51,428 nt of DNA from Plasmodium relictum (Eukaryota > Apicomplexa > Aconoidasida > Haemosporida > Plasmodiidae): NCBI RefSeq assembly GCF_900005765.1, contig NW_021628581.1, positions 1 to 51,428 on the forward strand, given 5' to 3'. This document shows, piece by piece, positions 1,237 to 51,428 of the stretch (positions are counted from its first letter, which is position 1; each line of letters begins with the position of its first letter). The translations under genes were made by a program, and so were the position numbers. Below the pieces are notes generated by a model. It saw only the letters and a list, made by a program, of their open reading frames with translations. It made no database searches and was not told the DNA's origin.

Positions 1237-1815
1237 TGGTTAATAAAAAAAATTCTATTAACTTTTTGTAAAATAAAATGAGCTACCAATCACGAAAATA
1301 TAAGATAGCCACTTACTGAAGCTAGTTAAAAAAAAAAATAATGTGATAATTTTTTTTTGTTTATTTTTTTTTTATATACATTTTTGTAATTAAAAAATCA
1401 AAAAATTAAATTCTTTTTTTTTTACTTGTCGATTGATGTTTGTTCGAATTAAAAAGAGAATTAATTTCTACTTATATAAAAAACTTAATATATGAAAAAG
1501 TATAATGTTTATGTTGTATTTAATGTGTATATTTTGAAATAACATTGAATAAATCAGAGTTTTAATTTTTGTTATTTATTTAAATTTTGTGTGTGCGTTG
1601 TTAATTAAGAGAATATACTTATTTTTTGTAAATAAAAACACATTTATAAAAGTAAACATATATCTGTTAAGCAATACAGAATAATTTAATTCAAATATTG
1701 ATATTATACATTATAAAATACCAATATATATATAATAAAAATAAATATATATATATATATATATAAATGCATATTTAGTTATAAATGCTCTTTATTAATT
1801 TGTTTGTTCAATACT
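1237..1815 (+). mobile_element. Family-1 LTR, cut at the AGTAT site
   Basis: It starts TGGTTAATAA and follows the family-1 consensus in sense orientation: CTAGTT plus an A run, a microsatellite of TA, then CTCTTTATTAATTTG. It stops at GTTCAATACT, which is the reverse complement of AGTATTGAAC. The next base is the TG of another LTR. The missing end is the last about 35 bp. The break falls exactly at the site used in two other nested insertions in this window. Confidence 0.75.
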
Positions 1816-18640: not shown

Positions 18641-18731
18641 ACGTTCTTTATTAGTTCGACTGTTTATGGTATTATAAAAACATTCAGACACGTAATTAAA
18701 AAATTACTGTTCAAAGAATTTGGTAGAGTAT

Positions 18732-19920
18732 TTATATATTAATTGTCCGTTTGAATACTTTTTCAGTATTTTAAAGAATCATATCAATGAAGAACAAGTA
18801 GACACATCTCTAATATATTTTACTTATTTTAAAATAGCTTATTATAAAAAATTATATACTCTTAACATAATTATTAATTTTATATAAAATAAATATCTCT
18901 TATTTGTTTTATTTTCTTGATCAAATTATAATAGTTTTTATTAAAAACTATTTTTAGTTGCCTATAAATTTTGTTTATTTACCCATAATAAACAATCTAC
19001 GTAAAAATAAATTGTTCATAAAAAAAAGTGAAAAAAAAGGATTAAAATTTATTCTATAATAAAAATTAATAGTTGTAATTTATTGGTTTTAGTTTATATT
19101 GTATACTTCTTTAAAGAAGATATGTAAAAATATGTTTCTATGTACAAATATCTCTATAAACAAAATATTGTTATATTCATCTTCGTATACTTATCTCTAT
19201 ACATGAATTGTTTTAATATTTTGCATACAGTAATATCTTTTATACATAATCTTTTTTATTATATGGGTAATAAAAAATTTGTTATTAACCTTTTGTAAAA
19301 ATGAGATATCGGTCAGGAAAATATAAGCCAGCCCTATACTGATGCTAGTTAAAAAAAAAAAAAATATATATAAAGTTATTTTCTTTTGTTTGTTTTATTT
19401 TATTTATATAAATCTTTGTAAAAAAAAAATATAAAAATTATTTTTTTTTTTTTTTGGATTGTTGTGGATTGACGTTCTCTAGAATTAAAATAAGAATTAA
19501 TTTTTACTTATATAAAAACTTACTAAAATTAATAAACAATGTTTATGTTGTAATCGATATATATATTTATTGAAATAACATTAAATGAATTATAGTTTTA
19601 ACTTTTGCTATTTCTTAAAAAATTGTATATGTTTTTAATTAAAAGAATATACTTATTCTTTGTAAATAAAAACACATTTATAAAAGTAAACATATATCTG
19701 TTAAGCAATACATAGTAAGTTAATTCAAAATAGATATTATACATTATGAAATATCAATATATATATAATAAAAATAAGTATATATATATAAACGTATATT
19801 TAGTTATACGTGCTCTTTATTAATTTGTTTGTTCAATACTCTAGCAAAGTCATTAAATAGGTAATTAATAAATCATTATATTAAAATTTTAAAAAGATAA
19901 ATAAAATCTTTTATTAATCA
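18732..19920 (-). mobile_element. Family-3 LTR, middle layer of the nest, target duplication AGTAT
   Basis: It consists of 18732-19263 plus 19876-19920. It begins TTATATATTAATTGTCC, a variant of the usual TGATTTATTAATTG, and ends TTTTATTAATCA. It is flanked on both sides by exact AGTAT (18727-18731 and 19921-19925). A second, partial copy of the same family lies at 49517-49946. It shares the segment TTTTGTTTATTTAC and the spacing around it. Confidence 0.7.
19264..19875 (+). mobile_element. Family-1 solo LTR, inner layer, exact target duplication TTATA
   Basis: 612 bp from TGGGTAATAA to AATTAATAAATCA, in the opposite orientation to its host repeat. The flanks TTATA (19259-19263) and TTATA (19876-19880) are identical. 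It carries the block CTGATGCTAGTT plus an A run. It is the youngest layer here, since it interrupts the family-3 LTR, which itself interrupts a family-2 LTR. Confidence 0.9.
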
Positions 19921-20458
19921 AGTATTGAAAAAATAAATTAATAAAGAGAATGTATAAATGACTCTACTTATTTTAATTATTGTAAAAATATATTGATGTT
20001 ACGAATACATAAACTATACACACATAGTTTACATAGCTGAGTATTTATTATTCTATAGGTATTTATATACCTTAATAAAAATGATCCCAGTTTTTATTAA
20101 AAAGTTAAATCCTTGTTAAAATTAATAATTATATGTAAAATAATTTTTGAAAAAAAACATACAAATTTAAATTATAGTTATGAAATGTATTTTAAAAATT
20201 CTTAAAAATTAAATATAAATAAAAATAAAATTCTTTTTGTTTTTCTTTTAAATTTAGAATTCAATTTTTATCCTTTTAAGAATTAATTTGACTTGGCAAC
20301 AAAAATTTTGCTAAAAACCATTTTATAAATTTTTTCATCTAAAAGAAAGAAAAATAACATTTATTTATTTTTTTAAATTAGAGAATATGCATAGATAACT
20401 CTCTATTTTCCATTTGAATGACTACATGTTGTAAAAGTTTAATATCTTTTATTAACCA

Positions 20459-34135: not shown

Positions 34136-37029
34136 ATGATACTTTTATTAATTCTAGCTTTTTATTTATTCATAGTTAAAGAGGAGTATTACATATTTAA
34201 AGTGAATTATACTTATGGATTTTTTTTTTTATCTTTACAATTTTTCGTGCTGAGTAATACTTGCATTTCAGAAGATCCGATAGCAAAAGAAATCCTTGAT
34301 TCGTATTTAAGAATCATTATAATTTTTTAGATATTTTGGCATATATATTTATTATATATATTAAATTTTTTTTTATTTACAGATATAATCTTTTATATGT
34401 CAATAGTTATGAACAACCTAATTTATTAAATACAGTAAACGCAGGAATTAATGAGAGATATGCAGTTAATGAAGATTTAAATTCTCCCTTTAATTTAGAA
34501 CATCTTCCTGATATTTCTAAAATATTTTCTATTGATTCTTTTTTAGAAGGGTTTGAATTTTTTTTTTTTTTTTGTATTTTTATGAATTCTTTCTTTTTAA
34601 ATTAAAATTTATGTAACATACTTTATTTTAAATCTTAGTCTCAATATTAATTTCAACAATGAACATCAAAACAGTGGAACTTCAGTGGAAAGCACTAAAG
34701 AAAATGTAGAAGAAAAAGCGAAAAAGCAAGAAATTTGCAAACAAAAAGGCGACAATATAGTAGATATATCGTGTGGAAGTAGTGAGCATACTCTAAATTA
34801 TAGGATTAGTTCAGGTGGTATCATGTATGAGTGTAAAAATTAAAAATTTTATATTATTACTCTAACATTTTTTATTTAAATTAAATATTTTACATATATT
34901 TACATCTCCTTTTATTTTTAGTGATCACATGAATGTTGATCATGAACAACCAAATATAATGGATCCAAGTGAAAGAATGGCTCAATACTTTCCTGTATGC
35001 CGAACATATAATAGAGAAGAAGATAATGTGAATGAGGAAATTTTCTCGCATAATGTTTCCTCTAATTTACTTACAAATAAGTAGATATATACTTTTTTAA
35101 ATATTTTAACTTTAAAAGCTTTTTACTTTAAATATTTTATATACGTATATTTTTGTTTATTTTTAGTAGATATTTAAATAATATTAATCATAATGGTGAA
35201 GTTTTGAGACCTACAATAGGTACACAAAACACACAAGATAAATGTACTGATGATTTTAATGGTATTGATCTTAGTCTCCTAGAACCTCTTGGAGATCTAA
35301 AAGAATCATTAAATTCATTTATTAAGAGGTATATATTTATTCCTTCTTTTATTGAATATGTTAATGCATAAATTATATTATTTTAATTATAAAAGTTATA
35401 TTCCACTTACACTTTTTTTTTATTTTTAGTTATATTACAAGCAATTCCCCTTGTGAGCAATTCAATATGACCAATCCAATTGAGAGGAAAGATCAAGAAA
35501 TTGAATTAAATTGTAGTAAAGAAAGAAAAAATAATGATAGCCATGAAAGTACTTCAGATAATGCAAACAGTGAACCAGTAGTCAACAAAAATACGCATAA
35601 ATATTTTAAAAGTTTTCTTCATTCTATTACGAATAATGTTTTTAAAATGGAGGCTAAATATATTTCAAATGAAGTACTTCCAAATTTAGATATAATATTG
35701 TATTCTTTAAAAGATAGTTATGATAGCATTAATGGAGCATTTACTAGAGAGATACAACCACTTAAAATTCTTATAAACGAAGAACTCGAAAAATTCGATT
35801 TGCATATATCATTGGAATTGGAAAAAAATTTTACTAATTCTTCTGATTATTTAGATGATCAATCAATAAATAAATATTATAAATATAATTCACTGAAAAA
35901 TAATACATCTTTTGTAATTAATAAAGAAAAAGAACTACTTGCAGTTATAAAGAGTTCCTTAAAAACTTATGAAATGTTAATAGAAAAACTTGAAACTTTG
36001 GAAAAAGTTGTTTCTAATTTAAGAATGATTTTAAATAGTTTAAGTTATAATAGTATTTTTTCTTGTAACCTATCATTTTTGAATTTTGAAGATATATATT
36101 ATATTATAGATGTGTTTAAACTCATTGACAATTTACTAGAAAAGGCTGAATCATCAACTAAAAGAGGATGTTTAAATCTAAGAAAAAAGGAGATACGTGG
36201 TGTCCAAAGATATTTGACTAAAATTAACATTATTTTACATAGATCTTTTTATTCACTCGGTCGTACCTTCGTAAAATTCTTTAGTTTTATTAAATATTCG
36301 AAAGAAGATAATATTCTGCTAATGAAATACCTTTTTTATTTCTTTAATAAAGAACATAAAATGTTGATGGAAGATATGAAAAAAATTATGAATAAACATA
36401 GTGATGTATATGCAACAAAAATGACTTATGATTTTATATTAACACAAATGAAAAATTATTCAGAATATCGTACATATGCTAATAAGTTTTTTAATATAAA
36501 TATTAATGAAAATGAATTGGATAATAATAGTTTACAAGTAATTATGGAAAACGGATTATCATTAAATGGACTACAATATTCCTTAGGAAGAATAAAAAAA
36601 TTAATAGGAATATTATCTTTAAAAAACCAAATAGTATCGATCAGAGATATATTAACTTCGTTAAGCAAAATTAATTTTCATGAGCGAAAACATTCCCCAC
36701 GAATAAAATATAAAATATTATGTAAAGATATGGAAATGAATTTACTGAAAGATTTAAAAGACTTCAAAGATATATATGAAGAAGCTAAACTAAATATAAA
36801 ATCTATTTATTCTTTGAGATATGCAGAAGTAAAAATTTCTGATGCTGAAATTCAAATATTACGGAAAAAAAAACAAATAGAAAAACTTATAAATGGTATT
36901 ACTTCGGCTAAGAATTTAATTAATGACAAAATTCTTAATTCAAATGCTTATGAACAAGTTAAGGCCATTAGAGAATATATTCTCCTATCCAAAGTATTTT
37001 TTATTAAGAAAACTCTAGAAGCATATTAA
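34136..37029 (+). CDS. Six-exon secreted helical protein, 813 residues, family unrecognised
   Basis: Proposed exons: 34136-34302, 34383-34550, 34639-34824, 34922-35080, 35167-35328 and 35430-37029. Every intron is 80-101 bp, starts GT, ends AG after a T-rich tract and falls in phase 2. Together the exons keep one frame to the TAA. The N-terminus is hydrophobic and includes a good signal (FFFLSLQFFVLSNTC), so the protein is probably secreted. Exons 2-5 encode short polar modules of 53-62 residues. From about residue 340 the large last exon encodes a Lys/Asn/Ile-rich, mostly alpha-helical domain with no transmembrane segment. That domain is shared with the gene at 45956-47995 (for example ISNEVLPNLDIILYSLKD against LTNNVNPNLQIVYNDLKN). 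No known domain or catalytic motif is seen. The start is the weakest point: an ATG at 34216 sits just before an 11-base T run but is out of frame. Confidence 0.8.
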
Positions 37030-45955: not shown

Positions 45956-47995
45956 ATGTTATATATGAATTTTATTTTTTTATTTTTCATATATCTCATA
46001 TTAATTAATGCTAGTTCTTCTGAAGAATGGCAAAATAATGAAAGTAAAAATACACTTGAAGGGTACGTGTTGTGAAGATATTTTTATGTTGAAAAATATT
46101 AATTTTAAATAAATATTTTATATGTTAATTATTCTTTCATTATTAGACCATATTCAATTACTTATTTTAAGGATAATTCTGTTAATAAGGAGTCGATAAG
46201 TGGTGATAATTATGATAATGATAAGTTACATGATTTGGAAAAAACTTACCATAAAATGCAAGTTGTGAAACCTTTTTCTTTCTTAAAAAGGTATATATAT
46301 TTTTAGTGTTTTCAAGTGGAAACTTATTTATTTTAATTAGATATTTCATGTATCTATTTTTATTTTTATTTTACTTATGAAATTAGTGAACATGCTGATG
46401 ATGGTCCTAGCACTAGTGGTTCATTGAAAAGAAAATTAGAGGAAAATAATACAATTAATCCAAAACAGAAAAAATGTAAAAAAAAAGAAAAAGACAATGA
46501 TAATAAAGAAACTTATGAAGATTGTCTGATTAATTCAAGTTCTAGTTTAATGAAGAATTCCAATGGTGTTAAAAATCGTTTGCTTGATCAAAGCGTGCTA
46601 AGTGCCATTTTTGAAATAAATTTGAGTTATTTGACAAATAATGTAAATCCGAATTTACAAATAGTATATAATGATTTAAAAAATAAATATAATTTATTCA
46701 AAGATACTATTAATGAAGCTATTGGTAAATTACAAAATATTTTAAAACATAATCTGCAGAATATTGATGAAAAAGATTTATTGGCAATCAATTATCATTA
46801 TACTAATTTCTTTAATAGTGGAAATATATCATTAGATACAATTTATGAATTTATATCATCATTTAAGCATGAATTGAATTATGAACTTACTAACAAAGAA
46901 CTAGAAGGTGCAATAAAGAATATTTTAGAATTTGTTAATTATTTAAATCCTCAATTTGAGTCGTTAAAGAAAACAATTAAATTTATATTAGAAACTATGG
47001 GAAATATTACATACACTAATATATATAATATTCCAAAAATTTTTTCACATAATGTAAATACAGCAATTATATTGGAATTATTGGATATCATGGAATATTA
47101 TATAAATTCCATTGAAAAATCATTTATAAAAGGATCTAAATATTATAACGATAGAGTTCTATCAAAAAGCCAAAATCTGATGCATTCTATTAGAAAAAAA
47201 ATTTTTAGACCTATAAAAGCACATACAAAGAAATATCTAGAATATTCTAGCTTATTGAATACATCAAGTGATAAGGATATAATAGAAATGAAAGATCTTT
47301 TTTTTTTATTATATAAAAATAACATGAAATGTAAAGAAAATATAGGGTATATATCAAAATATTCTACTAATAGAGTAATTATAGAAGCATTTAATAATAT
47401 TTTATCAGCTGAGGGCAATATAATTTCAGAAACTCATAATAAAGCTTGTGAAATATTTATTTCAAATGAAGAAATAAAAACGAAAATGAATGAAGATTTA
47501 TCTAAAATTCAAAAAGACCAAAATGAGTTAAACCGTTTAATTTTAATGTATGAAAACTATTTTGAATTAATAAGAGTCACAAATATTCAAAATAAATTTA
47601 ATTTAATTATGGAAACCCGTAAATCATTGAAACGTATGAATACAAAGAAAAGCAAATATTCTCTATACAGATCAAATAAAATTTCACCACGTTATTTGCC
47701 ACATCTACTTTCAGAAGTAGAAACTAGAAAAATACAATTAGCAGAAATTAAATCATATATATTAAATGGTTATGAACTTGCTTTCAAAAAGCGAAATATA
47801 TTAGAAATTAGTTATTCAATATTAAATTTACATAAAAAATTAAATAAAATGTCTTCAATTGTTACTATTTTAAGAGACTTGCATCATGAGAGGGCTATAA
47901 AAACATTTGAAGATAAAAAATCCAGTTTAGATGATAATTTTATATTGGCATTATATTATACAAATAAAATAATGGATGATTGCTATATAAAGTAA
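45956..47995 (+). CDS. Three-exon secreted helical protein, 619 residues, paralogue of the six-exon gene
   Basis: Proposed exons: 45956-46062, 46147-46290 and 46387-47995. Both introns (84 and 96 bp) start GTACGT or GTATAT, end TTAG, and are in phase 2, so the frame is continuous to TAA. Residues 1-22 form a clear signal peptide (MLYMNFIFLFFIYLILIN). Exon 2 is a 48-residue acidic, Asn-rich module. Residues 99-103 read RKLEE, which fits the RxLxE export motif, although it lies further from the signal than usual. A basic cluster (KQKKCKKKEK) follows. From about residue 154 to the end lies the helical domain shared with the 813-residue protein. No membrane segment or enzyme motif is seen. It is likely secreted and possibly exported into the host cell. 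The function is unknown. Confidence 0.82.
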
Positions 47996-48334: not shown

Positions 48335-48949
48335 TGATTTATTAATTGGCTGCTTAATGACTTTGCTGGAGTATTAAACAAACAAATTAATAAAGAGTAT
48401 GTATAAATAAATATACGTTTTTAAATATATATATACTTGTTTTTATTATTATATATAATGGTTTCTTATGATGCATAATATTTAATTTGAATTAAATTTT
48501 ACTGCATCTTTTAATAAATATGTTAAATTGTTATAAATGAGTTTTTATTTGCAAAGAATCGGTATATTTTTTTAATTAAAAACACACACACTTAATTTAT
48601 AACAAATGACTAAAATCAAAATATAATTCATTTAATATTATTAAATAAAAATATACATTGAATATTACATAAACGTTATACTTTTTCATTAAGTTGTTCA
48701 TGTAACAAAAATTTAATTCTCTTTTTAATTCGAAAACAAATATCTAACAACAAAAAAAAAAAAAAAATAATTTAATTTTTTTTTTTTTAATTACAAAGAT
48801 GTATAAAAATAAAATAAACAAACAAAAAAAAATAACTTTATATATATATTTTTTTTTAACTAGCATCGGTGCATGGTTGACTTGTACATACACTACTAGT
48901 AAGCTAGCTTAGTGTACTACAAAAGGTTAATAACATATTTTATTAACCA
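48335..48949 (-). mobile_element. Family-1 solo LTR, exact target duplication AGGGG
   Basis: 615 bp from TGATTTATTAATTGG to TTTTATTAACCA. The flanks AGGGG (48330-48334) and AGGGG (48950-48954) are identical. Because G runs are so rare here, this is the most convincing target duplication in the window. The conserved block AACTAGCATCGGTGCATGG is at about 48858-48876. Confidence 0.93.
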
Positions 48950-49516: not shown

Positions 49517-49946
49517 GCAATTAATTTATTGACCTTTTTAATACTTTAAAAGTATTTTAAACAATAAAATTAAAAAAATTATATAGGAATTTATAATAGG
49601 TTTATTTATCATAAAATAGTTGATTACAACTGTTCTTAGTCTCTAGTAAATTTTTGTTTATTTACTAAAAATAAAAAGATAATCTGGAAAGAAAATATAA
49701 AAGTTTTATAAAAAATTGTCGTGAAAAAGAAAATCACTTCCATCAAAGAAAAATTGAAAAAAGAATTTAATTTTTTTTTATAAAAATTGATACAAACATT
49801 TTACTAGTTTTTTCTTCTATTTTTGTGGCATGCCTTTCTGTAGGAAATATTTACAGATAAATTTTACTATCTGTCGGTCTATATAATAAAAGATTGCTAC
49901 ACATATGTTATTATACATGCCTTTATACGTGCATTTTTTCTAGTAT
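49517..49946 (-). mobile_element. Family-3 LTR, truncated
   Basis: It starts about GCAATTAATTTATTGACC. It resembles the family-3 element at 18732, for example in the stretch around TTTTTGTTTATTTAC and AAGATAATCTGG. It is cut at 49946, where CTAGTAT is followed by the TG of the next LTR. Confidence 0.5.
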
Positions 49947-50184
49947 TGATTAATAAAATATTTTATTATCTTTTTATAATATATAAAGTTAGCTTACTGC
50001 TCAGAAAAATACAATTCATGCATTGACACTAGTTAAAAAAAATAATATTTATATATAGCTGTATTTTTTTTTTTGTTTTGTTTACTTTATTCTATATATC
50101 TTTTGTAAGTATCAAAAAAAAATTTATTATTATTTTTTGTTTGTTGTTGCTTTTTGAATTGAAGAGAGAGTTAATTTTAATTAT
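49947..50184 (+). mobile_element. Family-1 LTR, first 238 bp
   Basis: It starts TGATTAATAAAATATTTTATTATC and includes CATGCATTGACACTAGTT plus an A run. It is interrupted at 50184 by the start of another LTR stub. The left flank is AGTAT. Confidence 0.65.
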
Positions 50185-50647: not shown

Positions 50648-50687
50648 TGATTTATTAATTGCCCGCTTAATGACTTTGCTAGAGTAT
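50648..50687 (-). mobile_element. LTR terminal stub cut at AGTAT
   Basis: 40 bases, TGATTTATTAATTGCCCG to TTTGCTAGAGTAT, followed at once by a second, nearly identical TGATTTATTAATTGCCCG. It is the left piece of an LTR into which the next element inserted. The expected right piece, starting AGTATTGAAC, lies outside the window. Confidence 0.75.
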
Positions 50688-51331
50688 TGATTTATTAATT
50701 GCCCGTTTAATGACTTTGCTAGAGTATTAAACAAACAAATTAATAAAGAGCATATATAACTAAGTATACGTTTATATATATATATTCGTTTTTATTATAT
50801 ATATATATACTGTTTTCTTATGATGCATAATATTTAATTGAAGTTAAATTTTACTGCATCTTTTAATAAACCTATTAACAGTTATAAATGAGTTTTTATT
50901 TACAAAGAATTAATATCTTCTTTTAATTAAAAACATACAAATAATTTATAACAATTTATTAAGTCAAAATTTATGATATTCAATGTTATTTCAAAAATAT
51001 ACATTGAATAATACATAAACATTTCTCTTATCTCTTAAGTTTTTAATAAGTTAACATTTCTTTCTTTTAATTTTTATTTACACTAAAAATTAAAACATAT
51101 TATAACATAACATAACATTCAAAAACTCTTCCAAAAAAAAAAAAAATATTAATTTTTTTTTTTTTTTAATTACAATGATGTATATATATATAAATAAACA
51201 AACAAAAAAAAATAACTTTATTTTTTTTTTTTTTATATAGGACTAGCGTCAGTGCATGGCTAACTTGTACGTATACAACTAGCAACTAGCTTAGCATGCT
51301 ACAAAAGGTTAATAATACCTTTTATTAACCA
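50688..51331 (-). mobile_element. Family-1 LTR, probable 3' LTR of a longer retrotransposon
   Basis: 644 bp from TGATTTATTAATTGCCCG to TTTTATTAACCA, nearly identical to the LTR at 1-661. Unlike the solo copies, its right flank does not repeat the left AGTAT. Instead, reading on the minus strand, a coding tail and a purine-rich stretch lead straight into this LTR. That is the arrangement expected at the 3' end of an LTR retrotransposon on the minus strand. Confidence 0.75.
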
Positions 51332-51364
51332 TACTCCACCACTTAGGGGAAGTAATAATTTTAT
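51332..51364 (-). other. Presumed polypurine tract and spacer
   Basis: The 33 bp between the stop codon and the LTR read, on the minus strand, CCCCTAAGTGGTGGAGTA next to the LTR's TGG. AAGTGGTGGAG is purine-rich and may act as the polypurine tract that primes plus-strand DNA synthesis. It is shorter and less pure than in many elements. Confidence 0.4.
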
Positions 51365-51428
51365 TTATATTTTATTTTCATTAGCTTGTTTTATGACCTC
51401 TAACCCTTTCTGTATTTCATCTTTAACT
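51365..51428 (-). CDS. C-terminal end of a probable retrotransposon polyprotein (partial)
   Basis: On the minus strand the frame from the window edge reads VKDEIQKGLEV, then IKQANENKI and TAA. G+C is about 35%, well above the flanking DNA, and the sense strand is purine-rich, as in Plasmodium coding sequence. It ends 33 bp before an intact LTR, so the likely identity is the end of the gag-pol polyprotein, normally the integrase tail in Ty3/Gypsy elements. Only 20 residues are visible, so no domain can be named. The opposite strand is also open here but is less coding-like. Confidence 0.5.
   Translation of the reverse strand, partial: VKDEIQKGLEVIKQANENKI

Follow-up and report, generated by a model that had tools for sequence, protein, structure and literature searches.

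Does a retrotransposon of the avian malaria parasite Plasmodium relictum insert repeatedly into older copies of its own long terminal repeat (LTR) at one 5-bp site, AGTAT, and if so, what guides it there? The question was raised by a window of 51,428 nucleotides (contig NW_021628581.1, the whole stretch of DNA analysed; C186 among the 514 contigs, 22,602,028 bases, that were searched) with a GC content of 17.6%. The first-pass annotation of this window had placed four junctions at the same site within LTRs and proposed a lineage that prefers its own LTR as target. The published genome account reports 344 LTR retrotransposon fragments in P. relictum, the vast majority of them subtelomeric (Bohme et al. 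2018, PMC5880244), and the P. relictum transcriptome includes a differentially expressed retrotransposon transcript about which almost nothing is known (PMC8093664).

The inserted LTR and its junctions in the window

The features on which the question turns are listed in Table 1. The LTR at 50688-51331 is probably read on the minus strand, with 51331 as its 5' end and 50688 as its 3' end. On the same strand of 51332-51428 a short reading frame closes with VKDEIQKGLEVIKQANENKI-stop and is followed by a noncoding stretch that reaches the LTR, as expected if 50688-51331 is a 3' LTR; we infer that it is, with the element running on past the window edge. In nine loci, representing seven places, the LTR end ...TTAATAAATCA (AAACA in one) is followed by AT and then by TGGCGACAACGGCAGG, which, two bases past the CA of the LTR, looks like a primer binding site (PBS). 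As this PBS-like sequence adjoins LTR 3' ends elsewhere, the end that the first-pass annotation had drawn as the left one is probably the 3' end. The LTR is thus probably reversed relative to the sense first given to it, so that AGTAT would read ATACT and would lie in U5, at 36-40 bp from the 3' end of the LTR. A leader of about 60 bases that starts with the PBS-like 16-mer (L059, L086, L132 and related loci) has a complement that we take, by eye, to resemble the 3' half of a serine tRNA; no tRNA match was returned in the leader loci by Rfam (4 loci) or ARAGORN (8 loci).

Table 1. Positions of LTRs, site pentamers and adjoining sequence in the window
Feature	Position	Strand	Basis or flank score
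ATACT closing an outer LTR (about 1235-1815), with the next LTR, 1816-2437, directly adjoining in the same orientation	1811..1815	+	
AGTAT on the left side of the matched pair; flank weakly similar to the U5 end of a diverged LTR	18727..18731	-	score 21.3
Diverged LTR, inserted here (length by subtraction about 574 bp), with another LTR inside it at about 19264-19878	18732..19920	-	
Right AGTAT of the pair, running into the outer LTR (AGTATTGAAAAAATAAATTAATAAAG)	19921..19925	-	score 39.5
AGTAT preceding an LTR-like start at 49947 (TGATTAATAAAA)	49942..49946	+	flank score 17.0
Outer older LTR, 3'-terminal 40 bp (U5 end), with AGTAT (ATACT on -) at 50683-50687	50648..50687	-	flank score 52.1, ends at reference position 39
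Inserted LTR, 644 bp, TG...CA ("young copy")	50688..51331	-	window sequence
Probable 3' internal end of the element	51332..51428	-	short reading frame

The LTR is abundant in the genome. A 40-base string from one of its ends occurred 1018 times at up to 3 mismatches, one from the other end 510 times at up to 1 mismatch, and near-intact copies of the insertion site numbered 1403. Integrase-core (rve) matches, counted irrespective of LTR linkage, came to at least 45, with at least 25 over the cut-off and 26 without an internal stop. TG...CA ends, which the search required, delimited 583-725 bp in 22 of 24 complete copies, and an exact 5-bp repeat flanked all 24 (this too was required by the search, making the figure a count and not a rate). 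Conservation along the LTR was strongest at reference positions 21-60 (window 50709-50748), the U5 box at the site; across the eight window copies, reference included, these 40 bp had an identity of 0.96-0.97 to the reference copy vs a mean of 0.74. Only two closed reading frames in the window, 35467-37029 and 46424-47995, reach 150 aa, the former without a Pfam match at E 0.01 and the latter with a weak match to Nsp1_C under the curated cut-off.

The AGTAT and ATACT pentamers were all present where the first-pass annotation had reported them. Flanks were placed in the LTR by composition-weighted anchored alignment to LTR copies, for which 150 shuffled flanks gave a mean score of 13.6, an eighth highest of 18.1 and a highest of 24.5. 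A score of 24 was taken as the threshold for LTR (one of the 150 shuffles passes) and scores below 18.5 as non-LTR. Scoring with equal match weights was tried and abandoned, the chance background being too high (60 shuffles, mean 15.3, highest 23). Three of the four window junctions assigned to one LTR site stood under this scoring (those at 50688, 18732-19920 and 1816), and the fourth, at 49942-49946, went unconfirmed with its flank score of 17.0.

The left flank of 50688 was LTR sequence stopping exactly at the site. Its right side falls outside the window, as had been reported: beyond 51331, where the LTR stops, comes non-LTR sequence like the 3' internal end of an element. The insertion at 18732-19920, described as sitting between two copies of AGTAT, does have both, with the right flank at the site (39.5) and the left flank weakly so (21.3, within the shuffle range). 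At 1811-1815 the left flank of 1816 lay at the site (61.7), and 2437 was followed by TATAT, which belongs to a different LTR position and leaves the insertion without a matching pair. A further complete LTR (48335-48949) has AGGGG on both sides; its left flank is an LTR end interrupted close to the hot site and its right flank resembles the final bases of the opposite end of an LTR, as if part of the outer copy had been deleted.

A genome-wide census of LTR junctions

Three samples of junctions were gathered regardless of flank sequence. Sample A consisted of the exact-match LTR 3' ends listed on the first contigs, to C124, minus 4 places on C120-C124; sample B of 72 of the about 100 listed exact 5' ends together with those in other loci up to C102; and sample C of all 49 ends of one LTR subfamily variant. 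The raw samples held 122, 100 and 49 junctions, respectively, a place held in two loci being counted twice. Short flanks (2, 2 and 2) and flanks that were the adjoining element's own interior on the PBS or PPT side (7, 3 and 0) were removed and near-identical flanks merged (28, 24 and 4), resulting in 85, 71 and 43 unique junctions, 199 in total. LTR-nested junctions numbered 43, 37 and 19, a total of 99, and 8 junctions of intermediate score stayed within the 199, assigned neither to LTR nor to non-LTR.

An insertion hot spot was found in LTR U5, with one position strongly preferred. The ATACT site, with mapped starts at 34-36, held 6 of the 43 nested junctions in sample A, 6 of 37 in B and 5 of 19 in C. 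That AGTAT is over-used beyond chance, as first claimed, was borne out by the genome-wide junction count which the first-pass annotation had proposed: 17/99 nested junctions (17/199 overall) lay at the site vs 0.48/99 expected if junctions were spread evenly along the LTR, and all three samples were enriched. Ten of the 17 were opposite in orientation to the outer LTR and seven were the same. Since two insertions (contigs C54 and C70) were counted from both sides, the 17 junctions correspond to about 15 insertions. Genome-wide, with duplicates unmerged, LTR 5' ends joined the site in the same orientation in 41 rows (33 distinct strings) and in the opposite orientation in 58 rows (46 distinct), while a reversed-pattern control for these 5'-end site junctions gave 0 rows. 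The corresponding 3'-end searches gave 74 and 44 junction rows, some with a flank other than the site.

Complete LTRs with exact 5-bp repeats lay at the site in 7 of 24 cases, and their target site duplications (TSDs) were AGTAT in three, GGTAT in two, and GATAT and AGTAC in one each. At each of the seven the variant was identical on both sides, with the outer LTR continuing beyond. These private variants (GGTAT, GATAT, AGTAC), doubled on both sides, indicate that the insertions were independent. Upstream flanks and outer LTR ends were also unlike in most copies, with few pairs alike; flanks recurred across contigs between L016 (C222) and L018 (C65) and between L005 (C435) and L013 (C70). The loci behind the 24 complete LTRs came from a query containing a nested junction and are biased towards nested copies; they served as evidence of independence and entered samples A and B only where they lay on the listed contigs (up to C124 and C102, respectively).

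Some copies showed other arrangements. The LTR of L006 (contig C247, 1500-2214) is longer by a diverged tail of 40 bp, which lies at the hot site. The copy would fit either a nested insertion that collapsed when inner and outer LTR recombined or a duplication of the tail, and it gives no inner TSD pair because its ATGCT repeats bracket the whole unit on both sides. LTR 5' ends repeated at short spacing were seen on C117 (2213-2390; 76 bp, three times), C20 (451-529; 53 bp) and C56 (55-195; 115 bp).

Target motif and local LTR density

Junctions outside LTRs displayed a target preference of their own. Of the 92 non-LTR junctions, 75 had T at -8, 50 had A at -7 and 51 had A at -2, and T at -5 and A at -1 were rare (4 junctions each); the opposite side was the mirror image, making the preference palindromic. 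The hot site, TAG-AGTAT-TRA, conforms to this motif. All LTR positions with at least four junctions fit its core (reference 26, 35, 68, 134 and 170, to which 1 is added for the LTR position), and among positions hit two or three times 287 and 320 fit it and nine do not. Nested junctions away from the site fell in 31 of 82 cases on the 11% of positions (+-1) that match the core motif. The pentamer AGTAT by itself was little favoured outside LTRs (2 of 79 flanks).

An additive motif model expected 3.1 of the 99 nested junctions at the site (bootstrap 95% share 0.4-10.2%, P about 0.005), and the same type of model trained on 174 junctions expected 2.7 (P about 1e-4). The excess at the ATACT site that the motif does not account for is roughly six-fold. 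The motif alone was rejected as the full cause, the site ranking 36/620 in the young copy and 18/626 with the larger training set. CTTTG, at LTR positions 27-31, was ranked above the site with 17 junctions expected and 4 seen, and reference position 68 was expected to have 1.1 and had 5; this over- and under-prediction points to a sizeable model error. Searches for CTTTG junctions returned 12 and 12 rows, some located elsewhere than the CTTTG site. At L026 (contig C151, about 824-923) 31 bp of the LTR end occur three times in tandem with CTTTG, the neighbouring target position, at the joins; this looks like an expanded nested junction.

LTRs as a class received about the share of junctions that their local density would suggest. 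The nested share of 50% (99/199) compares with an LTR coverage of 0.37-0.62 in the DNA at 300-1500 bp beside junctions; coverage of the window itself was 0.16. In contigs over 8 kb the nested share was 0.48 (32/67) vs a coverage of 0.37-0.41, and in shorter contigs 0.51 (67/132) vs 0.56-0.61, the two measures being unequal in method (anchored alignment for nesting, BLAST for coverage), as is evident from a BLAST coverage of just 0.26 and 0.55 in the first 60 bp. Coverage near junctions may also be inflated, because contigs tend to end in LTRs. A slight surplus of hits on LTRs for their local density is possible, at most, in the long contigs. The proposal of a lineage that prefers its own LTR was not upheld, given that the nested share approximates the local LTR density and that the motif found outside LTRs also bears on positions within them. 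A targeting factor may nevertheless act at the site, since it is hotter than the motif predicts.

Explanations for the hot spot and related elements

We consider it probable that motif-guided integration into LTR-rich DNA explains the nests and the hot spot in part. The avian malaria LTR retrotransposon (Ty3/gypsy according to the published P. relictum account) integrates by duplicating 5 bp of target and prefers a palindromic local sequence (T at -8, A at -7, the first of the 5 bp not T and the last not A, mirrored on the other side); we infer the integrase to be the source of this preference. The DNA beside insertions is roughly 40-60% LTR, and for that reason about half of new insertions fall in older LTRs. 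Within the LTR the strongest target lies in the conserved U5 box, probably 36-40 bp from the 3' end (GTTTA-ATACT-CTAGC in the probable true sense), and is used in both orientations. The likeliest cause of the six-fold excess would be a local feature of this conserved box, such as DNA shape, a nucleosome or a bound protein. That a host or element protein sits on the U5 box of the element's own LTRs and guides the integration complex, giving a self-addressed site that would confine new insertions to older copies at chromosome ends, seems to us rather unlikely.

Active self-targeting, in which a protein on the conserved U5 box tethers the integration complex and so builds the subtelomeric nests, is doubtful. 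The position of the site within the 40-bp stretch of the LTR that is best conserved (0.96-0.97 vs a mean of 0.74), its use about six times more often than the motif predicts and its occupation by the diverged window LTR at 18732-19920 as well, although with a weak left flank, all argue for it. However, LTRs overall are not clearly over-hit for the local density, the remaining LTR positions with many hits agree with the motif, both orientations are used, as a symmetric integrase would use them, and the error of the motif model, as seen at position 68 (1.1 expected, 5 seen), could cover part of the excess.

Spread of a single ancestral nested unit has hardly any likelihood, whether by segmental duplication, the case that the first-pass annotation had itself set against its claim, or by gene conversion. 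Certain flanks do recur between contigs (L016/L018 and L005/L013), and 28, 24 and 4 near-identical flanks had to be merged, many of them one place in two overlapping loci and not a count of duplications. Nonetheless, 17 junctions with differing outer LTR ends were left after merging, and their private doubled TSD variants, both orientations and unlike upstream flanks contradict the copying of a single unit. Template slippage that duplicated the terminal 40 bp of the LTR in tandem is very improbable, as is an artefact of short-read assembly. The same-orientation left junction resembles a 40-bp tandem repeat, LTRs are frequent at contig ends, the extra 40 bp of L006 lie within a single outer pair of ATGCT, and contig C151 has its 31-bp tandem copies; yet seven complete copies repeat the 5 bp on the far side with the outer LTR continuing, and the outer 40 bp were unlike the inner 40 bp in the copies compared. 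Slippage is also inadequate because opposite-orientation junctions cannot arise that way.

Ty3 is tethered by a factor to a narrow insertion window upstream of Pol III genes. Tj1 is similar to the present element in having a narrow insertion window but differs in that the window lies upstream of Pol III genes and is factor-tethered (PMC4600332). The closest system is that of nested plant LTR retrotransposons, in which older copies are targeted, a 5-bp TSD is commonest and the target motif is palindromic (Jedlicka et al. 2019, PMC6911290); the plant study also cites the Tos17 target ANGTT-TSD-AACNT. In the plants, however, LTRs are not a common target and the palindrome preference is weak (PMC6911290), whereas here one LTR position takes 17/99. 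Drosophila LTR elements likewise have palindromic target motifs that reach beyond the TSD, but the TSDs of the Gypsy group are 4 bp (PMC3276498) compared to 5 bp here. Target specificity of ZAM has been credited to its integrase, similar to what we propose, although its site is CGCGCg (PMC2527525). The parts of these two Drosophila accounts used here report no hot spot in an element's own LTR (PMC3276498, PMC2527525).

The published elements of P. relictum and P. gallinaceum resemble the one described here in their AT-rich genomes and in LTR fragments, mostly subtelomeric by the published account; their tRNA-type primer site (tRNA-Ser is reported for P. gallinaceum) may have a counterpart in the PBS-like sequence, and rve matches are present in the genome here (PMC5880244, PMC9141347). 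They differ in that the most complete published P. relictum copy has LTRs of 253-257 bp compared to 644 bp here (PMC5880244, PMC9141347). Within the parts of these accounts drawn on here, LTR nesting is unmentioned in both (PMC5880244, PMC9141347) and the target site is unmentioned in the latter (PMC9141347). A literature search for insertion sites of avian Plasmodium LTR elements found none.

To our knowledge, and among the papers found, this is the first target-site motif and the first insertion hot spot described for a retrotransposon of a malaria parasite. Together, hot spot and motif would account partly for the formation of LTR nests in avian Plasmodium, and the 99 five-prime junction rows at one position provide a countable natural record in which integrase preference may be set against factor-guided targeting.
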